DNA of 22,184 bases, taken from the IMG/VR virus record IMGVR_UViG_3300009149_000321, positions 1 through 22,184 of that record. One strand, 5' to 3'. The position numbers were made by a program, and so were the translations under genes. The notes under the pieces are model-generated. The model had not been told where the DNA came from. It worked only from the letters and a program-made list of their open reading frames with translations, and did no database searches. Shown here piece by piece: positions 1,807-19,035 of the stretch. Origin of the DNA: a virus. Numbering within the stretch: position 1 is the stretch's first letter; every line of letters starts with the position of its first letter.

Positions 1807-2759
1807 TGGAATTATCTAGGGAACATATAATTTATAATTTAGGCATTCCTGTTCCTTTAAATGAATCTATTCATTTTAGCAGACCAATGGAACTTAGGAT
1901 ACTTCATGAGCAAATGCTTTATGAAACTTTCTTAGATTCAATTAAAACCTTTGCTAAAGAAAAATTTAATCAAGTAATAACAACTATTAAAGATTGGAAA
2001 GACGCAGCTGTAGTTATAGGTAAAGTATTGTCTAATGGAGATTTATTAAATGATTTTTTAAAACCATTAGAAAGAAGAGTAGAAAAATTAATCCAACCAC
2101 TTACAGATTTTCTTAAAAAAATTAAATTAGATTCTTTTATTGAAAAGATTAAACAATTTATAGAAAAAATTAAATCTTTACAAGGTTGGAAAAAATTTAT
2201 GGCCTTAGTTACAGCAGGAAGTATAATAACTTTTATTATAGAAAAATTAAAATCTTTAGCTCCTGATGCTGTTAAAGACTTTTTAACAAAATATTTTTCA
2301 CCTACTTTTGTAACAGACATTTTAGGAAAATTAACTGATTTTCAATCATACTTAGGATTTTTACAACCTATTGTAAAAGGAGCTGAAATTATATTTAATT
2401 TTTTAAAACCATTAATAGAAGCATTTGCCGTTGCTCTTAAATCTGGGGGTAAATTTGCAACAAAATTAGTTAAAGAAAATAAAATGAGAAAATCAGAATT
2501 AAAAAACTTAATTCGTGAAAGAATTTTAAAAGAAGCTGAAGAAACAGCTTTACCTAACCTTGATGGTATTAAAACAAGTGATGCTAAACAAGCAGCTAAT
2601 TTTATTAGAAATAATAAACAAATACAAAAATTAATAGGTAATATTAATAACCCAAATGAGGTAAATGAATTCTTTTCAGTACTTTTAGGTTATATGCAAG
2701 ACATTAAAGGAGTAAATAAACAAAACCTTAAAGGTTTAATAGATACTAAATTCAAATAA
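1806..2759 (+). CDS. Hypothetical helical protein with an internal tag-like start
   Basis: This 317-residue, Lys-rich, almost entirely alpha-helical protein has no family I recognise. Residues about 30-120 are amphipathic helices. Residues about 133-150 (FMALVTAGSIITFIIEKL) are hydrophobic enough to touch a membrane but are not a clear transmembrane segment. The N-terminal region has several L/I-x-E motifs (LNE, LHE) of the kind cut by T4-type prohead proteases. At residue 227 (base 2484) an internal Met begins MRKSELKNLIRERILKEAEE, which resembles the N-terminal tags of several neighbouring proteins and is preceded by an A-rich stretch. The last 91 residues could therefore be a fused module or a second product. 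It is coupled to both neighbours by TAATG overlaps. A structural or injected virion protein is possible. Confidence 0.8.
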   Translation: MELSREHIIYNLGIPVPLNESIHFSRPMELRILHEQMLYETFLDSIKTFAKEKFNQVITTIKDWKDAAVVIGKVLSNGDLLNDFLKPLERRVEKLIQPLTDFLKKIKLDSFIEKIKQFIEKIKSLQGWKKFMALVTAGSIITFIIEKLKSLAPDAVKDFLTKYFSPTFVTDILGKLTDFQSYLGFLQPIVKGAEIIFNFLKPLIEAFAVALKSGGKFATKLVKENKMRKSELKNLIRERILKEAEETALPNLDGIKTSDAKQAANFIRNNKQIQKLIGNINNPNEVNEFFSVLLGYMQDIKGVNKQNLKGLIDTKFK

Positions 2760-3762: not shown

Positions 3763-4431
3763 ATGAACCTTAGAAAAGTCATAACAGAAGCATTAATAGC
3801 CAAAAAAGTAATCAGTGATTGCAATTGCGGTTGTAAAGCTTCAGAAAAATGTAATAAAGCGCCTATATTAAACGAAAGTATTGCTCCGCGCGAAATATTG
3901 TCTGAAGGTTTAAAATACCATATAGACAATAATAAGCCACTTACTGAGCATCTTTATCGTGCCGGATCTAAAAATTATTTTAATTTATGGTCTGAAGCAA
4001 GAGCATTATATGTTCGTAATATATTAGACTTTTCAGGTGATGATTTAGAAATTTTAACTGAAACTCACTTAGGTGAATTTGGTATATTTGAAGGTAAAAA
4101 AGTTCCATTAGATTTTATTATGGAAGATGAATACCTTGATTTAAATGAAGAAAAAAAGAAAAACCCACCATTAAATAAACCTAAAAGAGGTGGATCTAAA
4201 GCATATTATGTTTATGTTAAAGATCCTAAAACCAAAAGAATTAAAAAAGTATCATTTGGTTCAGGTGGATTAAAAGCAAAAATTAATAATCCAAAAGCAA
4301 GACAAGCATTTGCTAAAAGACATAGATGTTCAGAAAAGAATGACAAAACAAAAGCATCTTACTGGAGCTGCCGTTTACCAAGATATGCTAAATTGTTAGG
4401 ATTAAAATCTAACTTTTCAGGATTTTGGTAA
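3763..4431 (+). CDS. Tagged phage protein with C-terminal YWSC basic module
   Basis: This is a 222-residue two-part protein. The N-terminal tag-like helix MNLRKVITEALIAKK is followed by a short cluster with four Cys (CNCGCKASEKC, about residues 22-32) and many L/I-x-E sites (LNE, LSE, LTE, LNE). From about residue 145 comes a basic module: AYYVYVKDPKTKRIKKVSFG, an NPKARQAFAKRHRC element, then KTKASYWSCRLPRYAK. From memory, this NPxxRxxFxxRHxC...KTKAxYWSC pattern is a recurrent uncharacterised module in marine T4-like phages. The tag and the cleavage-like sites suggest a protein packaged into and processed in the prohead, which is inference. It ends in -NFSGFW, and its stop overlaps the TTG start of the next gene. 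Confidence 0.82.
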   Translation: MNLRKVITEALIAKKVISDCNCGCKASEKCNKAPILNESIAPREILSEGLKYHIDNNKPLTEHLYRAGSKNYFNLWSEARALYVRNILDFSGDDLEILTETHLGEFGIFEGKKVPLDFIMEDEYLDLNEEKKKNPPLNKPKRGGSKAYYVYVKDPKTKRIKKVSFGSGGLKAKINNPKARQAFAKRHRCSEKNDKTKASYWSCRLPRYAKLLGLKSNFSGFW

Positions 4432-4589
4432 AATTAACAGACATATTGAAAGAACTTCTTCAAGAAAAGAAGAAAAAACGAGACAGATGTCTTCGTATTG
4501 CTGACCGTAAATTCAAAAAACCATCAGCATATAAATCAGGTGCTGTAGTTAGATGTCGTAGAGGTAAAATTTGGAAAGGTATAAAATGA
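4425..4589 (+). CDS. Small basic tagged phage protein, TTG start
   Basis: This 54-residue protein starts at TTG (4425), overlaps the previous stop and ends TGA with the next ATG overlapping it (ATGA). The start is supported by comparison with the next gene: read from TTG, the N-terminus (M)VKLTDILKELLQE aligns residue for residue with MIKLTDIILEIIKE. The rest, DRCLRIADRKFKKPSAYKSG then AVVRCRRGKIWKG, is Lys/Arg-rich with two Cys. It matches a common environmental-phage pattern of a PSAY-S-G-x-V-x-C-R-x-G core, which I recognise from memory as uncharacterised. It is probably a small DNA- or metal-binding virion-associated protein. An alternative is that it is the product of a -1 frameshift extending the upstream protein, but no classical slippery heptamer is present. 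Confidence 0.75.
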   Translation: MVKLTDILKELLQEKKKKRDRCLRIADRKFKKPSAYKSGAVVRCRRGKIWKGIK

Positions 4590-4852
4590 TAAAGTTAACT
4601 GACATAATTTTAGAAATTATTAAAGAAGACGAATCATTACATAAATGGTTTAAACGTCAAGGTACCTCTGGTAAAGAAGGTGGTTGGGTAGATTGTAATA
4701 CCTGTAGAAAAGATAAAAAAACAGGTAGATTAAAATGTAAAGCCTGTGGTAGAAAAAAAGGTGAAAAAAGATCTAAATACCCTTCTTGTCGTCCTACTCC
4801 ATCTAAATGTAAATCAAAAGGTAAAGGTAAAACATGGGGCAAAACCAAGTAA
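4586..4852 (+). CDS. Small basic Cys-rich phage protein (KYPSCRPTPSKC type)
   Basis: This 88-residue protein is read from the ATG at 4586, which overlaps the previous TGA. An upstream in-frame TTG at 4571 is less likely, because the ATG start gives an N-terminal tag (MIKLTDIILEIIKED) matching the preceding gene. Residues about 18-35 read LHKWFKRQGTSGKEGGWVDC. They are followed by two CxxC pairs (CNTC, CKAC) and a GEKRSKYPSCRPTPSKCK stretch. This WF...GGWVDC...KYPxCRP pattern is familiar from phage proteins of the DUF5872-like kind, with no known function. The two CxxC pairs could bind zinc. The C-terminus is almost all Lys, Gly and Ser, which fits nucleic-acid binding or packaging with DNA in the head (inference). 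Confidence 0.8.
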   Translation: MIKLTDIILEIIKEDESLHKWFKRQGTSGKEGGWVDCNTCRKDKKTGRLKCKACGRKKGEKRSKYPSCRPTPSKCKSKGKGKTWGKTK

Positions 4853-4855
4853 AAA

Positions 4856-5287
4856 ATGAAAAATTTTAATTTAAAAAAATATTTAATTGAAGGTAAGTTA
4901 CATGAAAAATCAATGTCTTGTCCTCTCCCAACTCAAGATTTAGAATTAAATACCAAAAATAGAAATTCAGCAATTAAAGCTGATTATATTCAATATGGTC
5001 CTCTTAATTTAAGCGATGAAGAATATTGGGAAAGAGCAGCTAAACATTGGAATACAACTCCAGATGAAGCTAAAAAATCAAAATGTAAAAATTGTGTTGC
5101 TTTTGATATATCAGAAAGAATGTTAGAATGCATGCCAGGTTCAGTACAAGAAGATGGTTATTTAGGATATTGTTGGATGCATAGTTTTAAATGCCATAGT
5201 GAAAGAACATGTTACACTTGGGCAGCTGGAGGTCCTATTGATGAAGATAAAGTATCTTATGAATGGCAGGAACGTAAAGGAAAATGA
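4856..5287 (+). CDS. Tagged Cys-rich protein, high-potential iron-sulfur protein-like
   Basis: This 143-residue protein has an N-terminal tag-like segment (MKNFNLKKYLIEGKLHEKS) with L/I-x-E sites, a Tyr/Trp-rich middle, and a Cys cluster: C77-x2-C80-x11-C92-x13-C106, then C113 and C119. The local text CKNCVAF, ECMPGS and GYLGYCWM resembles the CxxC...C-x-x-PG...GWC layout of high-potential iron-sulfur proteins, which hold a [4Fe-4S] cluster and carry electrons. The resemblance is by eye, and a zinc or structural disulfide site is the main alternative. Similar proteins with the C-W-M-H...KCHSxRTCxTWAxGGPI end are, from memory, widespread in aquatic phages. The next gene overlaps it at ATGA, which implies coupling. 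Confidence 0.82.
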   Translation: MKNFNLKKYLIEGKLHEKSMSCPLPTQDLELNTKNRNSAIKADYIQYGPLNLSDEEYWERAAKHWNTTPDEAKKSKCKNCVAFDISERMLECMPGSVQEDGYLGYCWMHSFKCHSERTCYTWAAGGPIDEDKVSYEWQERKGK

Positions 5288-5544
5288 GACCATACATTGA
5301 CTTAGAAGTCACAGACAAATATATTATTAGGGAATTTTCTGAAAACATTGACCCAATAGAATTATTGTGGCATCGTGATGATGAAAATAGAACAGTTGAA
5401 ATAATTGGAGAAACAGATTGGAAGTTACAACTTGATAATCAATTGCCGACTTCTATAAATGAACCTATATTTATACCAAGACATGAATGGCATCGTGTTA
5501 TAAAAGGAACAGGAAAGTTAAAACTAAAAATACATAAAGACTGA
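5284..5544 (+). CDS. Small cupin-like phage protein
   Basis: This 86-residue protein is nearly all beta-strand. It contains LLWHRDDENRTVEI, then DWKLQLDNQLP, then PIFIPRHEWHRVIKGTGKLK. The pattern H-x-D/E...(G)...IP-x-x-x-x-H-R-V-I-K-G is the layout of a single cupin barrel, with His residues that could bind a metal. The length (under 90 residues) is the minimum for such a fold. Small HRD...IP..HRVIKG proteins recur in T4-like marine phages. Their role is unknown, with structural decoration or small-molecule/metal binding both possible. It is translationally coupled to the Cys-rich gene upstream, and a strong terminator follows it after about 40 bases, so it is the last gene of its operon. 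Confidence 0.8.
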   Translation: MRPYIDLEVTDKYIIREFSENIDPIELLWHRDDENRTVEIIGETDWKLQLDNQLPTSINEPIFIPRHEWHRVIKGTGKLKLKIHKD

Positions 5545-5585
5545 TTCATAGCCAGTCGCCCGTAAGGGATAAAAAATATGGAGCT

Positions 5586-5615
5586 GTGGCCCACCTTAAA
5601 AAGTGGGCCACTTTT
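5586..5615 (+). terminator. Rho-independent terminator after the cupin-like gene
   Basis: A perfect 9-bp GC-rich stem (GTGGCCCAC at 5586-5594 with GTGGGCCAC at 5603-5611) has an 8-base A-rich loop and is followed by TTTT. It ends the operon running from the window start. A smaller CCC-GTAA-GGG hairpin lies just upstream, around 5559-5569, and its meaning is unclear. Confidence 0.85.
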
Positions 5616-5650
5616 AGTTTGGCTTTAAATGTAAAGAATGATATATTAAA

Positions 5651-7021
5651 ATGTTAAATATGGCAAAGAAAATTGTAATCGTAGGAGCAGGTGTAGCAGG
5701 TGTAAATGCTGCTACCAAATTAGTTGACAATGGTTATCCTGGAAAAGACATTACTATTATTGATATGGGTAATGATCCTTATAACAGGAAACCTGAAGAA
5801 GTAATGACTGGTTTCTTAGGAGCTGGTGGATGGTCAGATGGTAAATTAACTTATCATACAGCAATTGGAGGACAATTATCTAAGTATGTTGGTGAGAAAA
5901 AAGCTATGTCTTTAATGGATGAAGTAATTACTAATTTTAAACGTTTCCATCCTAAACCAGAAGAAGTACAATGTTCTAATCCAGAAGAAGAACCAGAGTT
6001 TATTAAGCCATATTTTGGTCTTCGTTTGTTTCCTGTATGGCATGTTGGTACAGATTATCTACATGAGATTGGAAAAAATTGGTATGATTATTTAGTATCA
6101 AAAGGTATCAATTTTATTTGGAATGAAAAAGTATTCAAAGTTGACTTTGAATCAAATTTAGTATATTGTACTCATAAAGGTAAACAAGGAGAAAATGCTA
6201 TTTCTTATGACCAATTGATTTTTGGTGTAGGTAAATCAGGCATTGATTTTGCTCAAGAAATTCAAGATGAGTATCAATTAGAAACAGAACCTAAATCAGT
6301 TCAAATCGGTGTTCGATTTGAAGCACCACAAAAACACTTCCAGAAACTAATTGACATCAGTTACGATTTTAAATTGTATCGTAAATTTGAAAATAAAGGA
6401 GTATCACTTCGTTCATTCTGTACAAATAATAATGCGGCTTATGTTGCTGTAGAAAAAACTTATGGTGATAACAGTTATAATGGTCATGCTAAAAAAGATG
6501 AAAAATATAGAAATAACATGACTAATTTTGGTATCTTGATGGAAATTCAAGGTGTTAAAAATCCATTTAAATGGTCACGTAATGTTGTAAATAAATGTCA
6601 AATCAAAGGAAAAGGTTTGTATTACTCTCCTTCACGTACTGTTTCTCAAACATCTGAAGGTAATCAAGTAGAGGCTTTCCAAATTGGTTTAGAAGAATTG
6701 AGTGAAATTAAAAAAACATTCCAAGGTTATTTTGATTACATTACTGACTTTATTGATGATATGAAAAAAGTATTCCCAACATTAGGTGATGATTGGGGTA
6801 TTTATATTCCTGAAGTAAAATATTTGTCACCTGAACCACTTGTTTATGACAGTGATTTAGCTCTTATTGATTATCCAAATGTTCACTTTGTAGGAGATGC
6901 TTTATCAGCACGTGGTATTACAGTTTCAGGAGCTCAAGGTATCTTATCAGTTTCTAAAATTCTAAAACCAATAGAAGACGAATGGGATAATCATATTGGT
7001 GACGTTATTCAATGGCGCTAG
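5651..7021 (+). CDS. FAD-dependent dehydrogenase, COG2509-like
   Basis: This 456-residue flavoprotein has the Rossmann dinucleotide signature KIVIVGAGVAGVNAA near its N-terminus. It is followed by an FLGAGGWSDGKLTYHTAIGG segment, which resembles the G-x-x-G-A-x-S-D-G-K-L block of the uncharacterised FAD-dependent dehydrogenases of COG2509. The C-terminal VGDALSARGITVSGAQGIL element matches the second FAD-binding signature (GD...G-x-x-x-A-x-x-G) of that family. It should bind FAD and oxidise or reduce an unknown substrate in the cytoplasm. The length is normal and no key motif is missing. Either the ATG at 5651 or the one at 5660 (MAKKIV) could be the start, and the second fits the family better. 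It is the first gene after a terminator, so a promoter is expected in 5616-5650. Confidence 0.85.
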   Translation: MLNMAKKIVIVGAGVAGVNAATKLVDNGYPGKDITIIDMGNDPYNRKPEEVMTGFLGAGGWSDGKLTYHTAIGGQLSKYVGEKKAMSLMDEVITNFKRFHPKPEEVQCSNPEEEPEFIKPYFGLRLFPVWHVGTDYLHEIGKNWYDYLVSKGINFIWNEKVFKVDFESNLVYCTHKGKQGENAISYDQLIFGVGKSGIDFAQEIQDEYQLETEPKSVQIGVRFEAPQKHFQKLIDISYDFKLYRKFENKGVSLRSFCTNNNAAYVAVEKTYGDNSYNGHAKKDEKYRNNMTNFGILMEIQGVKNPFKWSRNVVNKCQIKGKGLYYSPSRTVSQTSEGNQVEAFQIGLEELSEIKKTFQGYFDYITDFIDDMKKVFPTLGDDWGIYIPEVKYLSPEPLVYDSDLALIDYPNVHFVGDALSARGITVSGAQGILSVSKILKPIEDEWDNHIGDVIQWR

Positions 7022-7052
7022 TTTGGAAATCCATAAAAAAGATGTTATATTA

Positions 7053-7307
7053 ATGATTATGAATGACAAGTATAAACAGTCAAAAAGACTTAGAAAAACA
7101 GACGGAACTATCGCTTATGTGTTTGATGGAAAACTTCATAATTGGGAAGGACCAGCTTTAATTCCTGAAGGTAATGAGCGTAAACGTGAATATTATCTTC
7201 ACGGTATTCAATACACTGAAGAAGGTTGGAAAGAAGCTCGTCGTAATCGTGAAGGTTTGCCTTGGTACAAGACAGCGATGGGTCAAGCAGGACAAAATAG
7301 AAACTAA
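7053..7307 (+). CDS. Small conserved phage protein (DGKLHNWEGPA type)
   Basis: This protein has 84 residues from the ATG at 7053 (or 82 from 7059). An in-frame TTG at 6996 would add 19 residues overlapping the dehydrogenase gene and is less likely. The core reads GTIAYVFDGKLHNWEGPALI, then EYYLHGIQYTEEGWKEARRN and GLPWYK. The D-G-x-x-H-x-x-x-G-P-A and Y-x-x-G-x-x-Y-T pattern resembles a MORN/YwqK-type beta-hairpin repeat found in many phage and bacterial proteins. From memory, close relatives occur in T4-like marine phages. The function is unknown. It lies between two enzyme genes, 31 bases after the first and 2 before the next, so it is probably co-transcribed with them. Confidence 0.75.
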   Translation: MIMNDKYKQSKRLRKTDGTIAYVFDGKLHNWEGPALIPEGNERKREYYLHGIQYTEEGWKEARRNREGLPWYKTAMGQAGQNRN

Positions 7308-7309
7308 TC

Positions 7310-7840
7310 ATGAAAATAGGTTTATGTGGGACAATGAGTGTAGGTAAAACTACATTAGTAAATGCTTTAAAAAAATTACCTGAATTTAAAGACTACAATT
7401 TTGCTACTGAGCGTTCAAAATATCTTCGTGATTTAGGTATTCCATTAAATACTGATTCAACATTAAAAGGTCAAATTATATTTTTAGCAGAACGTGCTGC
7501 TGAGTTATTACAAGAAAATGTTATTACTGATAGAACAGTAGTTGATGTGATGGCTTTTACTAAAGCAGCTGAATCAATTAATTATTATGAGGCTGATGCT
7601 TTTGATGAATTAGCTCGTAATTTATTACATGAATATGATTATATATTTTATGTATCTCCTAATGGTGTTGAAATGGAAGATAATGGTGTTCGTGAAACTG
7701 ATTTAAAATATAGAAATTTAATTGATTTTATTATTGGATTAAATTTACAAAGAAATAAACATCGTATTAAAAAACTCACAACATTATCCGGTACCACTGA
7801 AGAACGTATAGAAACCATTAAAGAAACAATTTTTAGCTAA
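7310..7840 (+). CDS. P-loop nucleotide kinase-like ATPase (AAA_28/NadR-like)
   Basis: This 176-residue single-domain protein starts with a P-loop, GLCGTMSVGKTTLVNAL (Walker A G7-x4-G12-K13-T14). It continues with an ATERSKYLRDLG segment, VITDRTVVDVMAF (a likely Walker B/base-binding strand) and a C-terminal lid-like helix. The T-E-x-x-R...DR-x-x-x-D pattern is that of the ATP-binding domain seen in NadR ribosylnicotinamide kinase and related AAA_28 proteins. T4-like phages use several such kinases for nucleotide or NAD metabolism. The substrate cannot be read from the sequence: a deoxynucleoside monophosphate, a nucleoside or nicotinamide riboside are all possible. It directly follows the small conserved gene with a 2-base gap. 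Confidence 0.8.
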   Translation: MKIGLCGTMSVGKTTLVNALKKLPEFKDYNFATERSKYLRDLGIPLNTDSTLKGQIIFLAERAAELLQENVITDRTVVDVMAFTKAAESINYYEADAFDELARNLLHEYDYIFYVSPNGVEMEDNGVRETDLKYRNLIDFIIGLNLQRNKHRIKKLTTLSGTTEERIETIKETIFS

Positions 7841-7845
7841 TATTT

Positions 7846-8487
7846 ATGGACATGAAATTATCTGAATTAAAGAAGCAAATTAAAGATAACATATACGAAA
7901 TTTTATCTGAGGAACCAGTAATAGAAAATTTTGGTCCTGCGGTTCAATCAACTGATCCTACAGCTAGAGAAATTGAGGATAAAATTAATAAAGATCCAAA
8001 AATTGTAACAAAAATAGCCCAAATAATGGCTCAAGCTGAAAAAGGAGGTGATACTACAAAATTATTAGGTCAAATGACTGGACTTTTTGAATCAGATGAT
8101 GAAGATAAAGTAGTAGCTAAAGGTGAAGGCATTGAAATTACTAAAGCTCAAATGGATAAACTTCATGCTGGTCAAACAGTAAAATTACCTAATGGTAGTA
8201 CTTTAACCTTTATTAAAGAAGAAGATGAAGATAGAGAACCAACTAAAGCTGAACTTGAAAAAGAAAAAGTAAAAGGTGCTCCTTCTAAATTTAAAGTGCC
8301 AACTGACCAATTTGAAGATTTTAAATTAAAATTAAAAACTTTAGTTGGTAAAATTAAAGATATGGAAAAAGGAGAAGCTAAAGATAAAAAAATGGCTGCC
8401 TTAAAACAATTTATCAAAAAACCTGAATTAATTAAAGCGTTTAAAGAAAGAGACGTTAAAATTGATACTGGTGGGTTAGTAGGATAA
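7846..8487 (+). CDS. Hypothetical tagged helical protein
   Basis: This is an unrecognised protein of 213 residues from the ATG at 7846, or 211 from the ATG at 7852. The second start may be correct. It begins MKLSELKKQIKDNIYEILSE, an amphipathic tag like those of several neighbours, and it lies 2 bases after an ATATTTATgg variant of the junction motif, the same spacing as at 3763. The middle contains a small GEGIEITKAQMDKLHAGQTV element and a beta-like LPNGSTLTFIKE element. The C-terminal third is charged helix (FKLKLKTLVGKIKDMEKGEA) ending TGGLVG. Packaging into the capsid or a structural role is possible. Nothing indicates an enzyme. Confidence 0.78.
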   Translation: MDMKLSELKKQIKDNIYEILSEEPVIENFGPAVQSTDPTAREIEDKINKDPKIVTKIAQIMAQAEKGGDTTKLLGQMTGLFESDDEDKVVAKGEGIEITKAQMDKLHAGQTVKLPNGSTLTFIKEEDEDREPTKAELEKEKVKGAPSKFKVPTDQFEDFKLKLKTLVGKIKDMEKGEAKDKKMAALKQFIKKPELIKAFKERDVKIDTGGLVG

Positions 8488-8488
8488 C

Positions 8489-8830
8489 ATGAAAAAATAC
8501 ATTATTCAAGGGGTTATAGTTTGGGGAGCTATAGGGTTGCTATGGCTTCTTTTCACCTATACTGGTTTAAAAAAATCAAGTAAAGAAAAAGAATATCAAG
8601 CAAAAATTGATTCTCTTCAGATTGAAATAGACTTGAATAAAGCAAAAATTGATTCTTTATCATCAGCAAAACTAGTCTTAGACTCATTAGTAGCTATAGA
8701 TAAAGCTAAGTTAAACGAAGTTTCTAAAAAAGCAGAAACTTATAGAAAAAAATACAATGAAGAACATAATCGTCTTATTGATATGTCTGATGATGATATC
8801 ATCAGCGAGTTCACAGCAGCGTTCCAGTGA
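8489..8830 (+). CDS. Membrane-anchored coiled-coil protein, candidate inner-membrane spanin
   Basis: This 113-residue protein has one N-terminal membrane segment (about residues 4-26, IIQGVIVWGAIGLLWLLF within it). A long periplasmic coiled coil follows (about 32-105) with the repeated unit AKIDSL, ending in DDDIISEFTAAFQ. A single N-terminal signal-anchor plus a coiled coil of about 80 residues is the usual form of Rz-type inner-membrane spanins, which fuse the two membranes at the end of Gram-negative phage lysis. The identification rests on topology, not sequence homology. The next gene begins inside its 3' end in another frame, as Rz1 does within Rz, which supports the idea. No endolysin or holin is visible in this window. 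Confidence 0.72.
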   Translation: MKKYIIQGVIVWGAIGLLWLLFTYTGLKKSSKEKEYQAKIDSLQIEIDLNKAKIDSLSSAKLVLDSLVAIDKAKLNEVSKKAETYRKKYNEEHNRLIDMSDDDIISEFTAAFQ

Positions 8831-9161
8831 TTCAACTGTAGTAGTTCCTATTAAAGCCTTAAGGAATGCTATGTTAATGAAAGTCTCCTATGATAATTGT
8901 AGGAATGAACTTGAAGTGTCTAGAGATTCTATTCGTATTCAAGATAGTATTATTAACAACCAGGATGAAACTATTGTAAATTTAGTACATCAAACTGAAG
9001 TTTATAAAGCTAACAAAAGAAATTATGAAGAAGTTGTAGAAAATAAAGATAAAATAATTGAAATTAAAGAGGAAGAAATAACAAAGTTAAAAGCTACAGT
9101 AAGAGGAGCTTGTGTCGCTATTGTATTAACTACTGTTAGCTTTGTCTTAATCTTACTATGA
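8757..9161 (+). CDS. Secreted/tail-anchored coiled-coil protein overlapping the spanin candidate
   Basis: This is a 134-residue protein. Residues 1-20 look like a signal peptide (MKNIIVLLICLMMISSASSQ, cleavage near SASSQ), followed by an extended region. Residues about 50-112 are charged coiled coil, and residues 117-134 (ACVAIVLTTVSFVLILL within it) form a membrane segment that ends the protein. An N-terminal export signal with a C-terminal membrane anchor is the topology of unimolecular spanins. There is no good lipobox, because the only Cys in the signal (C10) comes too early and follows Ile. The start is preceded by AAAAAAATACA, an A-rich context. Its first 74 bases overlap the upstream gene in another frame, and its stop overlaps the terminase start. 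Together they look like a two-gene lysis unit. Confidence 0.72.
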   Translation: MKNIIVLLICLMMISSASSQQRSSDSTVVVPIKALRNAMLMKVSYDNCRNELEVSRDSIRIQDSIINNQDETIVNLVHQTEVYKANKRNYEEVVENKDKIIEIKEEEITKLKATVRGACVAIVLTTVSFVLILL

Positions 9162-10732
9162 GCCAACCTGATTTAAAGAAAATAATAAGAGAAGAATATA
9201 TTAAATGTGTGCAAGACCCAGCACACTTTATGAAAAAATACTGCAACATTCAGCATCCACAAAGAGGTAGAGTAGTATTTAATTTATATCCTTTTCAAGA
9301 TAAAGTTTTAAATCTTTGGAAAGACCATCCTTATTCAATTGTTTTAAAATCAAGACAGTTAGGTATTTCAACATTAGCCGCCGGTTATTCTTTATGGATG
9401 ATGTTATTCCATAAGGATAAAAATGTGTTATGTATTGCAACAAAACAGGAAACTGCTCGTAACATGGTTACAAAGGTTAAGTTTATGTATGATAACTTAC
9501 CTTCTTGGCTTAAAATTAATGCGGATGAAAATAACAAATTATCGTTACGATTAAGTAATGGTTCACAAATTAAAGCCACTTCAGCAAGCAGTGATGCGGG
9601 TCGATCAGAAGCCGTTTCTTTGCTGATAGTGGATGAGGCAGCTTTTATTGAACAAATTGGAGAAATATGGGCATCAGCACAACAAACACTAGCAACGGGT
9701 GGTGGAGCAATAGTACTTTCAACACCGTATGGAACTGGAAATTGGTTCCATCAGACATGGAGCAAAGCAGAGTCAGGAGAAAACGACTTCTTACCAATCA
9801 AACTACCTTGGCACGTCCATCCAGAAAGAAATGATGATTGGAGAAAACGTCAAGATGAATTACTAGGTGATCCTAGATTAGCAGCCCAAGAATGTGACTG
9901 TGATTTTAGTACTTCTGGTGATGTAGTATTTTATCCTGAATGGATAGAATTTTTAAATCAAACCACTATTAAAGAACCTTTAGAAAGAAGAGGAGCTGAC
10001 CAAAATCTATGGATTTGGGAACCAGCTGATTATTCTAGAGAATATATGGTTGTAGCAGACGTAGCTAGAGGTGATGGTAAAGACTCTTCTGCTTGTCATA
10101 TAATTGATATAGCAACTAATACACAAGTTGCTGAATATAAAGGTCAATTACCTCCTAAAGAATATGGTTACTTTTTAACAGGTTTAGCTACTGAATATAA
10201 TAACGCTATGCTTGTTGTTGAAAATGCTTCAATTGGTTGGGCTACAATAGATGCTATTATTGAAAGAGGATATAGAAACCTATATCACTCTCCTAAATCC
10301 GACCAGCTAACAGCAGAATCATATCTAAGAGTATTTGAAGGTACTTCAGATATGACTCCTGGATTTACAATGTCTTTAAGAACAAGACCATTAGTTGTAA
10401 ATAAATTTAGAGAATATGTTGGTGACAAAAGTGTAACTATTCGCTCAAAACGATTAATAGAAGAAATGAAAGTATTCATTTGGAAAAATGGTCGACCAGA
10501 AGCTCAAACAGGATACAACGATGACTTGGTTATGTCATTTGGGATCGGTATGTTCCTACGAGACACGTCACTTAAGTTTCAACAACATTCTCAAGATATG
10601 ACTAGAGCAGCATTAGGTAATTTTTCAAAAGGAACTACTCCATTTAAAGGAGCATATGGGTCTAACAATATTCCTAATCCTTACTCTATACAAACTAGAG
10701 ATGGAGAAGAGAACATTAGCTGGCTTTTATAA
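9158..10732 (+). CDS. 17: Terminase large subunit, T4 gp17-like
   Basis: This 524-residue packaging motor and headful nuclease pumps DNA into the prohead through the portal. The ATPase domain has a deviant Walker A, LKSRQLGISTLAAG (residues 63-76, with the Lys displaced to the front, as in many terminases). It also has Walker B LLIVDEAAF (155-163, D159/E160 catalytic) and a coupling motif VLSTPYGTG (186-194). The RNase H-like nuclease domain has D301 (VVADVARGDG), E355 (LVVENASIG) and D455/D456 (YNDDLVMS), the expected metal-binding acids. The length is slightly less than T4 gp17 (610). It overlaps the preceding gene (ATGA). The N-terminus PDLKKIIREEYIK happens to resemble the tag found on other proteins here. 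No small terminase is visible. Confidence 0.96.
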   Translation: MSQPDLKKIIREEYIKCVQDPAHFMKKYCNIQHPQRGRVVFNLYPFQDKVLNLWKDHPYSIVLKSRQLGISTLAAGYSLWMMLFHKDKNVLCIATKQETARNMVTKVKFMYDNLPSWLKINADENNKLSLRLSNGSQIKATSASSDAGRSEAVSLLIVDEAAFIEQIGEIWASAQQTLATGGGAIVLSTPYGTGNWFHQTWSKAESGENDFLPIKLPWHVHPERNDDWRKRQDELLGDPRLAAQECDCDFSTSGDVVFYPEWIEFLNQTTIKEPLERRGADQNLWIWEPADYSREYMVVADVARGDGKDSSACHIIDIATNTQVAEYKGQLPPKEYGYFLTGLATEYNNAMLVVENASIGWATIDAIIERGYRNLYHSPKSDQLTAESYLRVFEGTSDMTPGFTMSLRTRPLVVNKFREYVGDKSVTIRSKRLIEEMKVFIWKNGRPEAQTGYNDDLVMSFGIGMFLRDTSLKFQQHSQDMTRAALGNFSKGTTPFKGAYGSNNIPNPYSIQTRDGEENISWLL

Positions 10733-12676: not shown

Positions 12677-13534
12677 ATGAATATTAAACATTCTAAGTAT
12701 AAGAATACCGGCCTTTTGTTTGAACTTTTAGTAAGACAAATTACAGCGGATACTTTATCTGGTAAAGATTCTAAGGCTACTGGTATTTTAAAAAAGTACT
12801 TTGTAAAAACTGAATTAGGAAGAGAGTATAAATTATATGAAACTCTTTCCAAGCATAAGAATATTACTGAAGGTAAAGCAGAGATTATTATCAATACAAT
12901 AGTTGAGTCTTCTAAAGATCTTAATAGAGGAGCTTTAAAAAGACAAAAATATAACCTTATTAGTGAAATTCAAAAACATTATAATTTAGAAGAATTTTTT
13001 AAAACTAAATTACCTAACTATAAAGTATTTGCTTCTTTATATACTTTATTAGAAGTTTATAATAGTGAAAACTTATCCAACCCAGACCAAATTATTGACA
13101 ATAAAATGTCTCTTTTAGAGCATTTAACTTCTAAAAATATTAAAAAACAAAAAGTAGAAGATGAATTGTTAGAAGAATTTAAGTCTTATGATAAAGATTT
13201 ACGTATTCTAACTTACAAAGTAATGTTAGAAAAATTCAATGGTAAGTATGAGTCATTAAATGACAATCAAAAGATTGTTTTAAAAGAATTTATTAATTCA
13301 GTTGACTCAACTCCAAAATTAAGAGAATTTTATAACAGTAAAGTTGGAGAAATTAAAGAAGAAATAAATAAATTATCTAAAAAAATTACTGATAAAGCTG
13401 TTCAGATTAAATTAAATGAGGTAACCAACTTACTTTCTCCATTAAGTAAAACAGCCAATGTTGGTAACGATAACTTAGTTAATTTATTACAATATTTTGA
13501 ATTGTTAGAAGAATTAACTAAAGTTCATGGCTAA
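12677..13534 (+). CDS. Hypothetical helical protein in the head-assembly module
   Basis: This 285-residue, Lys/Leu/Asn-rich, almost purely helical protein begins MNIKHSKYKNTGLLFELLVR. I recognise no domain. Residues about 170-260 form long charged helices (KSYDKDLRILTYKVMLEK, then EIKEEINKLSKKITDKAVQI) compatible with coiled coil. It lies between portal and prohead protease, where T4 carries the small core proteins gp67 and gp68, so an assembly or core role is a reasonable positional inference. It has no sequence similarity that I can see to those proteins. The next gene starts 8 bases inside its 3' end, which implies coupling. Confidence 0.8.
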   Translation: MNIKHSKYKNTGLLFELLVRQITADTLSGKDSKATGILKKYFVKTELGREYKLYETLSKHKNITEGKAEIIINTIVESSKDLNRGALKRQKYNLISEIQKHYNLEEFFKTKLPNYKVFASLYTLLEVYNSENLSNPDQIIDNKMSLLEHLTSKNIKKQKVEDELLEEFKSYDKDLRILTYKVMLEKFNGKYESLNDNQKIVLKEFINSVDSTPKLREFYNSKVGEIKEEINKLSKKITDKAVQIKLNEVTNLLSPLSKTANVGNDNLVNLLQYFELLEELTKVHG

Positions 13535-14447
13535 TTACAAGTATAAATTAAAAGAGGCTGACGGAGTACTTAAACCTAAAGACGTTGACCCTGAGTTAAT
13601 ATCCAGGATTGAAAGACGTTATGGCGAAGTTGACTTCAAAAATGACTTTTTTAATAATACTTTAAGTACTTACTTTAAAGCAGTTAATGTTGATAATGAA
13701 ACTGGTAATATAGACCATAAAATAATTAAATTAGCTAACTTTGGAGATGCTTTAAGAGAAATGTCTGAAGCAGTTAAAGCTTTAACAGACTTATCTAAAA
13801 CAGCAGATGGTAAAACCGATCCTAAATTATCAGTATTAGCCCAAGACGCCCGTGATGTATTTAATAAATTTAGAACACATATTAGAAAGGAATATCCTGA
13901 ACAATATGTTCAAATTAAAAATTTATTAGATGAAATGAGTATGACAGGAGGAGGAGCAGGAGGTGCTCATTTTACTTCTGGTACTGAAGGAGCTAATTAT
14001 CCTACCAAATATGCTTTTGGTAAAAAGAAAAAGAAAATAGAAGAAGGTCCTGGAGCAACACTTGGCCCCGGTCCATCTGCTGGTCCTGAAGGTGTTACTA
14101 ATAACACTTATGTTAAAAACTTTAAATATAAATTAGTTGATAAAAAAGCTTTAAACAAAGCGGCTAAAGGTATTGAAGTAAAACAACTTTGGGAAGATAC
14201 AGATGTTGAAACCTATTTAAAAGATGCTAATATAAATAAAGACTCCAATAAAAAATTTATTGGCAGCCGAGTATTAGCCTTTGATACAATTGAAAAACAA
14301 TTAAACGAGTTAATTCCATTATTACAACAAGCAAAACATAAAACTTTGGATTTTTATAAACAAAATCCAGACTCGTTTAACGTTGTATATGGAACTGATT
14401 TAGCACAAGATTATTTAAAAGATATAATAGAACTATTTAAAGACTAA
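13527..14447 (+). CDS. Hypothetical head-module protein with two KYKL elements
   Basis: This 306-residue protein is of unknown function. It begins MANYKYKLKEADGVLKP, and a similar element, NFKYKLVDKKALNKAAKG, recurs at about residue 197, which suggests an internal duplication. The first helical domain (about 15-135) is followed by a Gly-rich linker, MSMTGGGAGGAHFTSG, leading to NYPTKYAFGKKKKK. A similar Gly-then-(T/S)-x-Y-A-F-G element occurs in many marine phage proteins, from memory. A second Pro/Gly linker (GATLGPGPSAGPEG) comes before the second helical domain. The layout of two helical domains joined by flexible linkers suits a scaffold or tether, but this is inference. It overlaps the previous gene and is 3 bases from the next. 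Confidence 0.8.
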   Translation: MANYKYKLKEADGVLKPKDVDPELISRIERRYGEVDFKNDFFNNTLSTYFKAVNVDNETGNIDHKIIKLANFGDALREMSEAVKALTDLSKTADGKTDPKLSVLAQDARDVFNKFRTHIRKEYPEQYVQIKNLLDEMSMTGGGAGGAHFTSGTEGANYPTKYAFGKKKKKIEEGPGATLGPGPSAGPEGVTNNTYVKNFKYKLVDKKALNKAAKGIEVKQLWEDTDVETYLKDANINKDSNKKFIGSRVLAFDTIEKQLNELIPLLQQAKHKTLDFYKQNPDSFNVVYGTDLAQDYLKDIIELFKD

Positions 14448-14450
14448 AAC

Positions 14451-14687
14451 ATGGCAAACATACCAGTAAACCCAACCGCCCTTTATACTTCAACTACAGC
14501 AACAGGTAGTTTTGCTGGATTTACAGTAGTATCAGGCTCAAGCGCTGTTATTACAGGGCTAAAAGATTATCAAGGTCAAGTATTAGCAACAGCTGCTGCT
14601 CCTATGGTTATCCCTGCAGGACATACAATTCCTGTTTATGTAACTAGTGCTTCTTTATCTACAGGAGCAATTTTACTTTATCCATAA
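14451..14687 (+). CDS. Small beta-rich protein, possible capsid decoration
   Basis: This 78-residue protein is rich in Thr, Ser, Ala and Val with almost no charged residues, starting MANIPVNPTALYTSTTATGS. The alternating hydrophobic/Ser-Thr pattern (FTVVSGSSAVITGL, MVIPAGHTIPVYVTS) predicts a small beta-sandwich or barrel. Such composition and size are typical of phage capsid-surface or neck proteins, and the position between portal and protease genes fits a virion part. It has no resemblance that I can identify to T4 Soc or Hoc. Its stop codon TAA is fused to a junction decamer. Confidence 0.78.
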   Translation: MANIPVNPTALYTSTTATGSFAGFTVVSGSSAVITGLKDYQGQVLATAAAPMVIPAGHTIPVYVTSASLSTGAILLYP

Positions 14688-14699: not shown

Positions 14700-15251
14700 A
14701 TGGCAACGCTACAACAACAATATAACTTAATTAAAGAAGGCAAAGGAGATAAAAATTTTTTCCTTAAACAAGCCATAAACCAATTCCCAGAGTTTATAAC
14801 TGTACATAATACATTTGATCAAACAGTTAGTATTTTAAAAGGTAAAAGCATTATCTCCGAAGGAGCTGGTGGTGTAACTACTGGTAGAAAAGATTGGTTT
14901 AAAATCTTTGAAGCTGAAGTTAAGGCTCATAATAAAGAAACTGAAAAAGAATTAGTTGACTTAGAAACTAAAAACTTTGACTATAAAGACAAAAAGAATA
15001 TTGATAATGTTTATGGTCAATCTTTCTTGATTGGTTATTTAGCTGAAATGGGTGATCCTAAAAACGCTAAAAAAACAGTAGATGAATTAAAAGCTATTGT
15101 AGCTAAAAACATGGCTAAAGATGCTAACTACTATGCTAAAAATGGTATGTTTGGTGTTAAAGGAATTGGTTTAGAAACTTCAACTGAACCTAAAGCACCT
15201 AAAGGTAAATACAAAGCAAGTGGTTACGGTGATTTAGACAAGAAAAAATAA
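14700..15251 (+). CDS. Hypothetical prohead-core-region protein
   Basis: This 183-residue, Lys-rich, mostly helical protein begins MATLQQQYNLIKEGKGDKNF, with the phage-typical FFLKQAINQFPEFI following. The middle contains a helical KTVDELKAIVAKNMAKDANY stretch. The tail (PKAPKGKYKASGYGDLDKKK) is basic and flexible. The stop overlaps the protease start (TAATG), so it is translated together with gp21. In T4 the genes directly before 21 are 67 and 68, small prohead-core proteins needed for correct head shape. A matching role here is suggested only by position and size. There is an I-S-E motif at residues about 53-55 that the protease might cut. Confidence 0.8.
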   Translation: MATLQQQYNLIKEGKGDKNFFLKQAINQFPEFITVHNTFDQTVSILKGKSIISEGAGGVTTGRKDWFKIFEAEVKAHNKETEKELVDLETKNFDYKDKKNIDNVYGQSFLIGYLAEMGDPKNAKKTVDELKAIVAKNMAKDANYYAKNGMFGVKGIGLETSTEPKAPKGKYKASGYGDLDKKK

Positions 15252-15856
15252 TGAAACAAGTATTAATTGAAACCATACCATTTACAATTGGTCGTACCCA
15301 ATTGCATGAGGGAATGAAAGCTCCATCTGGTAATCCTTTAGTTGTAGGTATTTTAGCTACTGCTGAAGTAAAAAATGGTAATGGTAGATATTATGCTAAA
15401 GAGTTATGGGAAAGGGAAATTGATAAATATCAAGAAGTTATTAAACAAAATAGAGCAACAGGCGAATTAGATCATCCTGAATCCTCTATTATTTCTCTTA
15501 AAAATGTTTCTCATATTATTAGAGATTGTTGGTGGGATGGAGATAAAGTAATGGGTAAAATAGAAATACTACCTACCACCTCTGGAAATATTTTAAAAGC
15601 ACTTATTGATAATAATGTAACAGTAGGTGTATCATCTCGTGGAATGGGTTCATTAAAAGAAATTAGTGAAGGCACATTAGAAGTACAAGATGATTTTGAA
15701 CTACTATGTTGGGACTTCGTATCAACACCTTCAAACCCAGGTTCATATATGCACCTAGTTAAAGAAGGTAAAGAAGTTAATACATACCAATATGGTAAAG
15801 TTAACGGATTATTATCCGAAATTCTTTGCGCAAACGGCTCTTGCCCTGTTTTTTAA
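15251..15856 (+). CDS. 21: Prohead core scaffold protease, T4 gp21-like
   Basis: This 201-residue serine protease (MEROPS S80 type) is trapped inside the prohead, where it digests the core and trims the capsid protein so that DNA can enter. GELDHP at residues 71-76 supplies the catalytic His75, matching GELNHP in T4 gp21. GVSSRGMGS (126-134) supplies the nucleophilic Ser, matching GVSSRGLGS. The WWDGDKVMGKIEIL segment between them is also conserved. The N-terminus (MKQVLIETIPFT) resembles that of T4 gp21 (LLIETWG). It is about 10 residues shorter than T4's. The last residues contain two Cys (CANGSC). Its expected cleavage rule (L/I-x-E) is met by sites in gp22, gp23 and several small proteins here. 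Confidence 0.95.
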   Translation: MKQVLIETIPFTIGRTQLHEGMKAPSGNPLVVGILATAEVKNGNGRYYAKELWEREIDKYQEVIKQNRATGELDHPESSIISLKNVSHIIRDCWWDGDKVMGKIEILPTTSGNILKALIDNNVTVGVSSRGMGSLKEISEGTLEVQDDFELLCWDFVSTPSNPGSYMHLVKEGKEVNTYQYGKVNGLLSEILCANGSCPVF

Positions 15857-16014: not shown

Positions 16015-17325
16015 ATGGCAAACAGAGACTTACTCAAAGAAGCCATTGCCGATGCTAAAGCTGTTAAGGAAACAGCCATCGCCAATGCAAAAGCTGCTTT
16101 GGAAGAGGCCTTTGCTCCACGTATGCAAGAATTGTTAAAAGTAAAACTTGAAGAAATGGACAAAGACATTGAAGAAGCAGAAGAAGTAACTGAGGGAGAT
16201 GACATTTACGAAACTGAGGACAACATGGAAGAAGCTATGGGTGATACCATGGAAGAAGCTATGGACGACAAAGTTGAAGAAAACGAAGTTGATCTTGAGG
16301 AACTTCTAAGAGAATTAGATGAATTAGAAGAAGAAGATTCAGTAGAAGAAACCGAAGAACCAGTAATGGAAGCTGAGGAAGAAGAAGCTGAGGAAATGGA
16401 GGACACAGAAGAGGAAGAAATCGACCTTGAAAACATGTCTGAAGATGACCTTAAGAAATTTATCGAAGATGTAATCGCAGACATGGTTGAAGCTGGTGAA
16501 TTAGAAGCTGGTGAAGGCATGGAAGGCGAAGAAGAAGATGAAGAAGAAGGTGAAGAAGAAGTAGAAATTAACGAACGTAAAAAGTACGGTGGTAACAAAG
16601 GTGACGTTCCTGCTGCTAAACGTGGTGACAAAAAAGACATTGCTGAAGAAGAAGGTGCTGAAGATGAAATCGCTGCTGCTTTAAACAAAGTACACGATGA
16701 CAAGTCTTTAGATTCTGAACCAGAAATCAAGAAAGCATTAGCTGATCTTGAGAAGAAAGTTCATGAAGGTGCAGATCTTGAGGAAGGTCAAATTAATGAA
16801 GGGTACGGAGTATTCTTACCTATTATTAAGATGATTGCTGCCAAGTTTGGAATTGGAATGGCAGGTGCAACAGTAGTAGCTGGTATGATACCATTTACGG
16901 CTATTGCTACCGGAGCAGTAACTGCGGTTATGATCGCTAAAGCTGTTAAAGCCTACAAAGAAAAGAAAGCAGCTGGTGATCTAGCAGAAGCTCTTAAAAC
17001 CGTTGAAATTCTAAAAACTGAACTTAACGAGGTTAATCTTTTTAATTCTAAGTTACTTTACACAAACAAAATCTTTAAAGCTAAGAACTTAACCGAAGCT
17101 CAGAAAGTTAAAGTATTAACTACTTTTGACAAAGCTGAGACAGTAAAAGAAGTTAAGCTTATCTATGAAACCTTATCAGAAGGATTCACTTCTAAGAAAG
17201 CTCCTATGAATGAGTCATTAATCCGTGGTGGTGCCTCTAAAGCTGCTGGTGTAGCTACTAAGAAGCCAATTATGGAAGCTAATGACCAGGTTGCTAGATG
17301 GCAAAAATTAGCCGGTATTAAATAA
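16015..17325 (+). CDS. 22: Prohead core scaffold protein, T4 gp22-like, with hydrophobic insert
   Basis: This 436-residue protein, read from the ATG at 16015 (MANRDLLKEAIADAKAVKE), forms the major scaffold around which the capsid shell assembles; gp21 then digests it. The TTG at 15991 would add only eight basic residues and is not needed. Residues 1-50 are a helical Ala-rich segment and about 51-185 are extremely acidic (Glu/Asp runs). The C-terminal part (LNEVNLFNSKLLYTNKIF, NLTEAQKVKVLTTFDKAE, then VARWQKLAGIK) is the conserved end of gp22-type cores. Unusually, residues about 264-312 form a long hydrophobic Ala/Gly/Val/Ile segment (FLPIIKMIAAKFGIGMAGA onward), preceded by a QINE-G protease-like site. 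T4 gp22 has no such segment. The codon use is richer in C-ending codons than neighbouring genes. Confidence 0.92.
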   Translation: MANRDLLKEAIADAKAVKETAIANAKAALEEAFAPRMQELLKVKLEEMDKDIEEAEEVTEGDDIYETEDNMEEAMGDTMEEAMDDKVEENEVDLEELLRELDELEEEDSVEETEEPVMEAEEEEAEEMEDTEEEEIDLENMSEDDLKKFIEDVIADMVEAGELEAGEGMEGEEEDEEEGEEEVEINERKKYGGNKGDVPAAKRGDKKDIAEEEGAEDEIAAALNKVHDDKSLDSEPEIKKALADLEKKVHEGADLEEGQINEGYGVFLPIIKMIAAKFGIGMAGATVVAGMIPFTAIATGAVTAVMIAKAVKAYKEKKAAGDLAEALKTVEILKTELNEVNLFNSKLLYTNKIFKAKNLTEAQKVKVLTTFDKAETVKEVKLIYETLSEGFTSKKAPMNESLIRGGASKAAGVATKKPIMEANDQVARWQKLAGIK

Positions 17326-17352: not shown

Positions 17353-19035
17353 ATGTCACAAGTACAACAATTATTAGAGAGCGCTGCAGGTTCTTGGAAG
17401 AATTTGCAAAGCGACGCAGCCAAATTGGCTGGTAAGTGGACTAAGACTGGTTTATTGGAAGGTTTAGGCGAGATTGAAAAAAATAACATGTCAGTCTTGT
17501 TGGAAAACCAAGCCAAGCAATTAGTAACTGAAACACAAAACATCATTTCTACTAACTCATATTTTACTTCTGGTACTCAGGGTGAGAACTGGGCGGGTAT
17601 TGCTTTACCATTAGTACGTAAGGTATTCGGAACTATCGTAGAAAAAGAATTTGTTAGTGTTCAACCAATGATCATGACTTCAGGTCTTGTGTTCTTCTTG
17701 GATTTCCAATATGGAGATACTAAGAACCCATTCACTGCTGGTGATTCTTTATACGGTACTAGAAACGCTTCTGGTGAGTTCCCATTCCAAACTACTGAAA
17801 CTGCTGGTGGTTTGTATGGTACTGGTAGATTCACTTATTCTACTAACCAAACTTCATCTGTAGTAACTGTAACTTCAGCTTCAAACTTCAGTTCAGCTTC
17901 TTTCCAAGATGTAAATTTTGATTCTACTTACTCAGCTTCTGTAGCTAGAGGTGAGATCAAGAAAATTGCTATCTCTGCTTCAACTACTAACTTAGCTGAC
18001 TTCGATCCAGATGCTGTACGTGGTTTCATTATCACTTCAGGTTCAGAAATCGTTGCTGCTGATAACTTACAACAGTTTGCTAATTACGATTACACTAACA
18101 ACACTATTAACTTCTTCGTAACTGCTTCAGTTGCTGAATTGAACCCACCAGCTGGTGTTGGTGCTATGACAATCTTCTACAACAAGAAGACTACTGACCA
18201 GTACAGAGGTGATTTCGAAGATTCAAGCTCATACGCTGTTCCAAACGCTGCTTCTGCAACTACTATCTCTATCCCACAGATTAACGTTAAGATGCAGTCA
18301 CAAGCTATTACTGCTAAAACTAAGAAGTTGAAGGCTGTATGGACTCCTGAGTTTGCTCAAGACTTAGCTGCTTACCAAAACATCGATGCTGAAGCTGAAT
18401 TGACTAACATCATGAGTGAGTACATTTCAATGGAAATTGATTTGGAAATCTTAGATATGTTGATCGAAGATGCTGCTGCTGGAACTGAGTATTGGTCAGC
18501 TGTTAACAACACTGTAATCACTGGTTCTGGAGCTACAAACGCTCCTCAAACTTTGGCCTCAGGTTTCTACAACACTCAAGGTCAGTGGTTCGCTACTTTG
18601 GGAACTAAGTTACAAAAGTTAAGCAACAGAATCCACCAGTTAACTCTTCGTGGAGGTGCTAACTTCATCGTAACTTCTCCTACAGTTGCTACTGTGTTAG
18701 AGTCAATCCCAGGATTTGCTGCTAACTCAAACGGTGATGCTGCTCAAATGGAATATGCTTTCGGTGTACAGAAAGTTGGTGCCTTGAATAACAGATATAC
18801 TGTTTACAAGAACCCATACATGACTGAAAACTTGATCTTAATGGGCTACAAAGGTTCACAATTCTTGGAAACTGGTGCTGTATTTGCTCCATACATTCCA
18901 TTAATCATGACTCCATTGGTGTACGATCCTGATACCTTCACTCCACGTAAAGGTTTATTGACTCGTTACGCTAAGAAGATGTTACGTCCTGAATTCTACG
19001 CTAAGGTGTATGTTCATGGATTGAACACTATCTAA
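17353..19035 (+). CDS. 23: Major capsid protein, T4 gp23-like
   Basis: This 560-residue shell protein is somewhat longer than T4 gp23 (521). Its N-terminal propeptide aligns by eye with that of gp23: GLLEGLGEIEKNN and LLENQAKQL correspond to T4's PLLEGEGLPEIANSK and IFENQEKDF. The predicted maturation cut is after LVTE (residue 60), against FLTE65 in T4. The HK97-like body follows, with VRKVFGTIVEKEFVSVQPM early and a conserved C-terminal region (FAPYIPLIMTPLVYDPDTF, then GLLTRYAKKMLRPEFYAKV). A Ser/Thr-rich stretch at about residues 140-300 probably holds the inserted surface domain. Codon choice (AAC, TTC, GAC frequent) differs from most neighbours and fits very high expression. A strong terminator follows after 24 bases. 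Confidence 0.97.
   Translation: MSQVQQLLESAAGSWKNLQSDAAKLAGKWTKTGLLEGLGEIEKNNMSVLLENQAKQLVTETQNIISTNSYFTSGTQGENWAGIALPLVRKVFGTIVEKEFVSVQPMIMTSGLVFFLDFQYGDTKNPFTAGDSLYGTRNASGEFPFQTTETAGGLYGTGRFTYSTNQTSSVVTVTSASNFSSASFQDVNFDSTYSASVARGEIKKIAISASTTNLADFDPDAVRGFIITSGSEIVAADNLQQFANYDYTNNTINFFVTASVAELNPPAGVGAMTIFYNKKTTDQYRGDFEDSSSYAVPNAASATTISIPQINVKMQSQAITAKTKKLKAVWTPEFAQDLAAYQNIDAEAELTNIMSEYISMEIDLEILDMLIEDAAAGTEYWSAVNNTVITGSGATNAPQTLASGFYNTQGQWFATLGTKLQKLSNRIHQLTLRGGANFIVTSPTVATVLESIPGFAANSNGDAAQMEYAFGVQKVGALNNRYTVYKNPYMTENLILMGYKGSQFLETGAVFAPYIPLIMTPLVYDPDTFTPRKGLLTRYAKKMLRPEFYAKVYVHGLNTI

Follow-up and report, generated by a model that had tools for sequence, protein, structure and literature searches.

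Several small proteins encoded in the virus record IMGVR_UViG_3300009149_000321 share no common body, yet begin with a similar short amphipathic helix that ends in Leu/Ile-x-Glu, and the locus raises the question of what such N-termini (hereafter tags) are for. The record, a linear piece of viral DNA of 22 kb, was analysed over its full 22,184 nucleotides (the window), and all genes listed below are encoded on its plus strand. It belongs to a marine, T4-related phage which carries interchangeable short N-terminal tags on several unrelated small proteins. These tags are very probably T4-type capsid-targeting sequences, expanded into several interchangeable classes and cut by the prohead protease gp21.

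The five N-terminal tags and one internal copy noted in a preliminary description of the window were all present. The first tag (3763..3789; MNLRKVITE/A, the slash marking the predicted cleavage point) opens the protein at 3763..4431 (N-terminus MNLRKVITEALIAKK), the C-terminus of which is a phrog_7595/HVA1-like basic domain (phrog_7595, E=7e-11). The gene at 4425..4589 uses a TTG start which overlaps the preceding stop and is shared with a relative, L213. Its product (N-terminus MVKLTDILKELLQE) carries a tag at 4425..4454 (MVKLTDILKE/; second site LQE14, to 4466) on a small basic DRCLRIAxRK body, weakly similar to DUF5872 (Pfam E=7.5e-4, under the curated cut-off) and phrog_727 (E=0.0015). 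A Cys-rich basic protein follows at 4586..4852 (N-terminus MIKLTDIILEIIKE; tag 4586..4615, MIKLTDIILE/; second site IKE14, to 4627); in Flavobacterium phage immuto a single protein contains the 4425 body followed by this one, and a tag-like stretch separates the two. The product of 4856..5287 (N-terminus MKNFNLKKYLIEGKLHE; tag 4856..4891, MKNFNLKKYLIE/; second site LHE17, to 4906) resembles a high potential iron-sulfur protein (HiPIP) and has 7 invariant Cys, as judged from alignment and the annotation of relatives. The fifth tag, MKLSELKKQIKDNIYEILSE/ (7852..7911), starts at the second Met of open reading frame (ORF) 7846-8487, is of a type kept across a 91-member family and precedes a Lys/Glu-rich product without a Cys pattern. 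The earlier characterization of the tagged proteins as Cys-rich and basic describes 4425 and 4586 and, in 3763, the C-terminal half, and does not extend to 4856 or 7852. The internal copy, MRKSELKNLIRERILKEAEE, lies at residue 227 of ORF 1806-2759 (2484..2519, MRKSELKNLIRE/; second site LKE17, to 2534). In L247, a relative with the same gene order, its counterpart genuinely begins a gene of its own (L247:8680-9003), the body of which is the same (MKKSKLKEMIRTSILKEM...ELPNLDGIKTGDAKQAANFIRNN). This indicates that ORF 1806-2759 combines a tagged protein with another one upstream of it, through fusion or an internal start.

Assessing whether such short sequences recur more often than chance required relatives, which were fetched and their genes called on 278 loci. 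Single-linkage clustering of bodies was rejected as it merged 438 proteins through shared domains, and tag counts were therefore redone with tags defined by the conserved body behind them (body anchors) and compared with shuffles. This yielded 58 non-redundant tags, where non-redundancy denotes thinning at 70% and tags inside one body family are still related by descent. The [LI]xE motif alone is weak: it occurred in 52 of the 58 tags against 21.9 ± 3.5 when shuffled, approximately 38% of shuffled tags carrying one. The longer pattern PHI-x-x-PHI-[LIV]-x-E (PHI, hydrophobic) occurred in 54 of 58 against 2.9 ± 1.6. A profile for which only the 7852 family was used produced 41 N-terminal matches above 14 bits in other families, compared to 0.6 in shuffled proteins, and was roughly 21-fold enriched at N-termini relative to internal positions. 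Tag classes A to E were drawn after inspection of the data and serve as convenience labels only. A DNA pattern for class A, M-K-K-S-E-[LF]-K-x-x-I-[KR]-E, had at least 120 matches in viral contigs, where a scrambled pattern of equal degeneracy had none; 82 of the 85 matches read begin shortly after an in-frame stop, and in bacterial and archaeal genomes, 257 Gb in total, there were seven matches, four of them on virus-like contigs. The tag module is thus phage-specific, N-terminal and common to many unrelated proteins. Searches of isolated phages by tblastn found no match to a 21-residue tag and only immuto with a 26-residue tag, queries of this length being too short for the method.

The residues which recur are those that matter in T4. 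Counted back from the first LxE, P7 is hydrophobic in 94% of tags and P4 in 93%, compared to 7–16% at P2, P5, P6 and P8. An amphipathic helix alone does not account for Glu at P1, because in the context PHI-x-x-PHI-[LIV]-x-X Glu takes the final place in 89% of tags but in 9% of cases inside proteins, where Lys leads; at P1, Asp is depleted and Lys is not enriched. Mutational mapping of the T4 IPIII tag, MKTYQEFIAE, showed that targeting depends mainly on residues 4 and 7, and processing on residues 8 and 10 (PMC9026906). This sequence, found in ipII and ipIII, fits the code exactly, and P7, P4, P3 and P1 fall on the same four places. Every window tag conforms as well (LRKVITE9, LTDILKE10, LTDIILE10, LKKYLIE12, IYEILSE20 and LKNLIRE12). 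The idea of a new kind of tag unrelated to that of T4 was dropped once this shared code emerged; what had been put forward as a different, undescribed tag differs in its sequences while sharing the determinants of the T4 tag. In the open-access literature, we found no description of such tags outside the close relatives of T4.

The likeness extends beyond the code. As in T4 (IPI, IPII, IPIII and the Alt propeptide), N-terminal sequences of 9–20 residues with hydrophobic P7, P4 and P3 and Glu at P1 are combined with L/I-x-E processing, in a phage with gp21, gp22 and gp23, and the propeptides, here of 10–19 residues, stand on otherwise unrelated small proteins. While T4 has one class, the window lineage has several distinct classes per genome, with Lys-rich helices, and adds second LxE sites, tag copies that lie within fused proteins, a class copying the scaffold C-terminus and HiPIP-like cargo. 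Ejection-protein propeptides of the jumbo phages SPN3US and phiKZ are likewise removed by a prohead protease which cuts after Glu in a short motif, and their cargo is ejected; however, the motif is A-x-E or S-x-E and most of the propeptides are long, at 100 residues or more (PMC5694885).

When proteins were collected by body, ignoring the tag, one body was found behind differing tags. The 4856 HiPIP-like body (CPLPTQDLELNTKN) occurs behind MDNFDLKKYLAEGKLYEAAMA, MIKLLNILSEAELNQ, MKKSELKQIIREALEDKVKE or the T4-type MKLLFENWREFINEAKDLI, while the 4425 body, for which 54 distinct N-termini were gathered, occurs behind MDRLDKLINEVLSE, MIKLTDILKELLLE, MKITKTKLKKIIKEEFIQVLSE, MKKLLESWDRFLNEE and more. 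In the syntenic relative L247 the 4425 tag is replaced by MDNLKNLVKEILAE; DNA identity to the window is 70% in this tag, compared to 85% upstream, 90% in the body and 95% in the next tag. Among protein pairs with 4425-type bodies at least 80% identical, 354 of 1101 had tags no more than 40% identical. This exchange of tags over bodies appears to be the nearest natural counterpart of a tag alone carrying a foreign protein into heads.

Sites resembling those of the tags also occur in the head proteins which gp21 would be expected to process. The gene for gp21 itself, the presumed tag-cleaving enzyme (15251..15856; phrog_207, E=1e-55), encodes LIE7 in 78 of 80 homologues and LHE20 in 79 of 80, the T4 counterpart being LIE9 (PMC9026906). 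The major capsid protein gp23 (17353..19035; phrog_138) has LLE51 and LVTE60 conserved in 63 of 63 sequences, close to the start of mature T4 gp23 (residue 30 of T4 gp23* aligns to residue 84), and a predicted gp21 site at LVTE60/T, E60 ending at 17532. Two proteins encoded between gp20 and gp21 carry a processing site only: one, at the place of T4 gp67/gp68, begins MANYKYKLKE/A (13527..13556; [LIVM]xE10 in 77 of 80 homologues, the full targeting code being absent), and the other MATLQQQYNLIKE/G (14700..14738; [LIVM]xE13 in 76 of 80). That these two and gp23 have LxE without the P4/P7 part is expected if processing and targeting are separate.

Indirect support for the presence of tagged proteins in the particle comes from S-CREM2, a T4-like cyanophage with a virion proteome determined by mass spectrometry (PMC10665884). 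Its non-structural virion proteins include a SAM hydrolase (MKDFDSFLEE), gp13 (MKDLHSFLTE), a kinase (VKRFDAFLTE), gp136 (MQTFSMFFSE) and a cytidylyltransferase (MKNFSSFLTE). Beginning at residues 2–4, and with Phe allowed at P3 so that gp136 counts, the code occurs in 5 of 28 non-structural virion proteins, 0 of 24 structural proteins and 2 of 191 undetected proteins (p=0.0004). T4-type tags also occur on the window body families in other contigs and T4-like phages, and this result therefore ties the window tags to particle proteins. The S-CREM2 enzymes share the code, as M-K-x-F-x-x-F-L-x-E, and presence in virions, but their tag class and host differ, and the passages of that paper drawn on here report virion proteins and mention no tag. 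Nucleotidyltransferases (FGRxNPPTxGH) with T4-type or similar N-terminal tags were also observed in Melnitz (L441:1121-3073), HTVC008M (L442:579-2369) and S-CREM2 (gp154), the last detected in the virion by mass spectrometry.

These data bear on the possibility that the tagged proteins are scaffold-like components of the prohead core, cut and expelled rather than injected. The 13527 and 14700 proteins, with their conserved LxE sites at the gp67/gp68 place, and the Lys/Glu-rich, low-complexity character of some tagged proteins such as 7852 speak in its favour. However, S-CREM2 virions retain enzymes with T4-type tags, and several window bodies are conserved Cys-rich or enzyme-like domains, unlike disposable core peptides; we consider expulsion possible but rather unlikely. 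In the 4856 body, C77-x2-C80-x11-C92-x13-C106 is invariant across 13 aligned sequences, and relatives in seven phage records are annotated as high potential iron-sulfur proteins. Both features favour the suggestion in the preliminary description that the tagged set may include iron-sulfur proteins. The body had no Pfam match, a PDB sequence search returned no meaningful relative, and an AlphaFold model of the family was of low confidence (predicted local distance difference test score, pLDDT, 40). The cargo would most likely comprise the HiPIP-like protein, small basic Cys-containing proteins, the Lys/Glu-rich protein and, in immuto, a nucleotidase, which is tagged there.

A second alternative holds that the tags are generic amphipathic N-terminal helices for membrane or protein-protein contacts, with no relation to the head or gp21. 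Amphipathic spacing would account for the hydrophobic residues at P3, P4 and P7, and spacings of 2 and 5 to the Glu are also enriched. Set against this are the P1 Glu bias, the scarcity of class A in cellular genomes relative to viral contigs, the exact coincidence of LxE with the junction of tag and body (as in MIKLTDILKELLLE/DRCKRIA) and the lack of tags on the same bodies in gp21-less phages. Among tag-bearing records of at least 100 kb which were not fetched via gp21, 12 of 14 encode gp21. A comparison using a control pattern gave 2/21 versus 25/80, the control set being too small on its own, and long records and gp21-less isolates were therefore used. Eleven phages without gp21 (no phrog_207) were sampled, and in most of them the same bodies are untagged (for DSL-LC01 the first 60 residues of a longer protein were covered). 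The phrog_7595/HVA1-like domain starts with MAKYxGRTVKLNKP in the pelagiphages Aegir, HTVC111P and HTVC026P, which lack phrog_207, and reads MKKFKQYIDEGCCEACKSLDEELELTE/AEYQGKKVTLNKP, i.e. MKKFKQYIDEGCC...LTE/AEYQGKKVTLNKP, in the gp21-bearing phage C48C1. Similarly, no tag precedes the 4425-like body of CRP-902 or the HiPIP-like bodies of three spring-water phages, which all lack phrog_207. In cyanophages S-SM1 and S-E7 a 4425-like body lies within a larger protein, directly after IQE or QME. This natural control is stronger than the gp21 co-occurrence count, and we regard the generic helix as improbable.

The scaffold offers a further link. At least 17 unrelated proteins carry class D, M(K)KQILSEEFRRMQKLAGIITE/, close to the N-terminus. 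Its RxQKLAGI stretch recurs in the conserved C-terminus of gp22 (34 homologues and immuto). In the window, an acidic gp22-like scaffold, assigned by position (16015..17325), ends in RWQKLAGIK, with (R)WQKLAGI at 17299-17322; a PHROG search gave no match to this protein. The simplest reading is that the class D tag would dock where the scaffold docks. In immuto, the code occurs in 13 of 30 head-region genes versus 11 of 182 elsewhere (p=6e-7), and tags cluster at gp17–gp23 (p=3e-6). It is consequently very doubtful that the tags direct proteins elsewhere (to the tail or baseplate, the terminase/portal vertex or the replication site) with LxE incidental. In favour of this reading, TerL has the same helix, and not all immuto tags belong to the head cluster (exceptions include 1803, 24569 and, on the baseplate side, a gene at 81525). 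The clustering and the equivalence of class D and the scaffold C-terminus argue otherwise, as do the S-CREM2 data, where the tagged virion proteins are enzymes or hypothetical proteins and the code begins none of the 24 structural ones.

Several observations weigh against the tags being capsid-targeting sequences. Firstly, the N-terminus of TerL (MSQPDLKKIIREEY, 9158-9193) fits the code (LKKIIRE12) and is conserved in relatives. TerL is not a head-core protein in T4, and the fit may be fortuitous or mark a docking helix that is shared at the portal. Secondly, the 3763 tag is optional, many orthologues beginning MC.CGCNTC without an amphipathic tag. Thirdly, no gp21 is seen in 15 of the 34 long fragments that bear tags, though most of these 15 also show no gp23 or portal and most are fragments, on which the gp21 association partly rests. 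Fourthly, gp55 of the gp21-less phage CRP-6 is ambiguous, with Leu-Glu-Glu near its N-terminus. Finally, the S-CREM2 positives are few, and scanning residues 2–26 gives 5/28 versus 12/191 (p=0.05).

On balance, the proposal that the tags are capsid-targeting propeptides with a gp21-type site gains in silico support from P1 Glu specificity, swapping and gp21 co-occurrence, and further from the untagged bodies and the T4-type tags backed by cyanophage mass spectrometry. Given that the tags obey the T4 rule, the proteins that bear them probably enter the head, are clipped there by the phage protease and are injected with the DNA. The amphipathic helix, through hydrophobic P7 and P4, would dock its protein onto the prohead scaffold core; gp21 would cleave after [LIV]-x-E during maturation; and the body would stay in the head with the DNA, probably to be ejected with it into the host. 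We infer docking to gp22, cleavage by the gp21 of this phage and injection. Entry of the helix into the core and the gp21 cut draw support from the sequence evidence and T4 precedent, and ejection is the weakest step. The system is real and widespread and the packaging idea well supported; the tag would be better named a diversified T4-type capsid-targeting system.

TerL/gp17 (9158-10732) and the portal gp20 (10751-12643) precede gp21 in the window, and a PhoH-like ORF at 20777 was assigned by reading and because immuto has an annotated PhoH at the corresponding position. The best isolate matches of gp23 are immuto (56%), Microcystis phage Mel-JY01 (47%) and Rhodothermus phage RM378 (36%). As in far-T4 phages (PMC4360716), gp23 is nearer to RM378 and far-T4 capsids than to T4, by best matches rather than a tree, and phoH lies near structural genes. 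These matches point to a far-T4-like phage, probably with a Bacteroidetes host. Just upstream of TerL, the overlapping genes 8489-8830 and 8757-9161 encode N-terminal hydrophobic segments and charged helix-like stretches, and resemble small membrane proteins or a spanin pair. An FAD/NAD-dependent dehydrogenase-like gene (5651-7021; phrog_12409) and a small P-loop NTPase gene (7310-7840), both kept in relatives, lie in the interval from the tagged genes to TerL; NAD-synthesis genes are nearby in immuto. A small protein at 14451 (MANIPVNPT...), possibly a decoration protein, has a tandem duplicate in a relative (L009:8841-9104 and 9116-9379). GIY-YIG-like endonuclease genes are inserted between or near the head genes of relatives (L018:16742-17278, L071:15560-16138 and L053:748-1395), with none in the window.

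Beyond a few model phages, the proteins which enter the host with phage DNA are largely unknown. A readable tag turns their discovery into a sequence search, by which tagged proteins of aquatic T4-like phages, most of them annotated as hypothetical, become predicted injected proteins. A wider proposal, which we judge evenly poised, is that the single grammar PHI-x-x-PHI-[LIV]-x-E defines the injected set of these phages, with a repertoire of tag classes that can replace one another, including one that mimics the scaffold C-terminus, loading a HiPIP-like redox protein, nucleotide enzymes and basic proteins. The T4 capsid-targeting rule was mapped in a single protein of a single phage; here it is extended to a large natural test set, and new tags are offered for packing proteins into heads.

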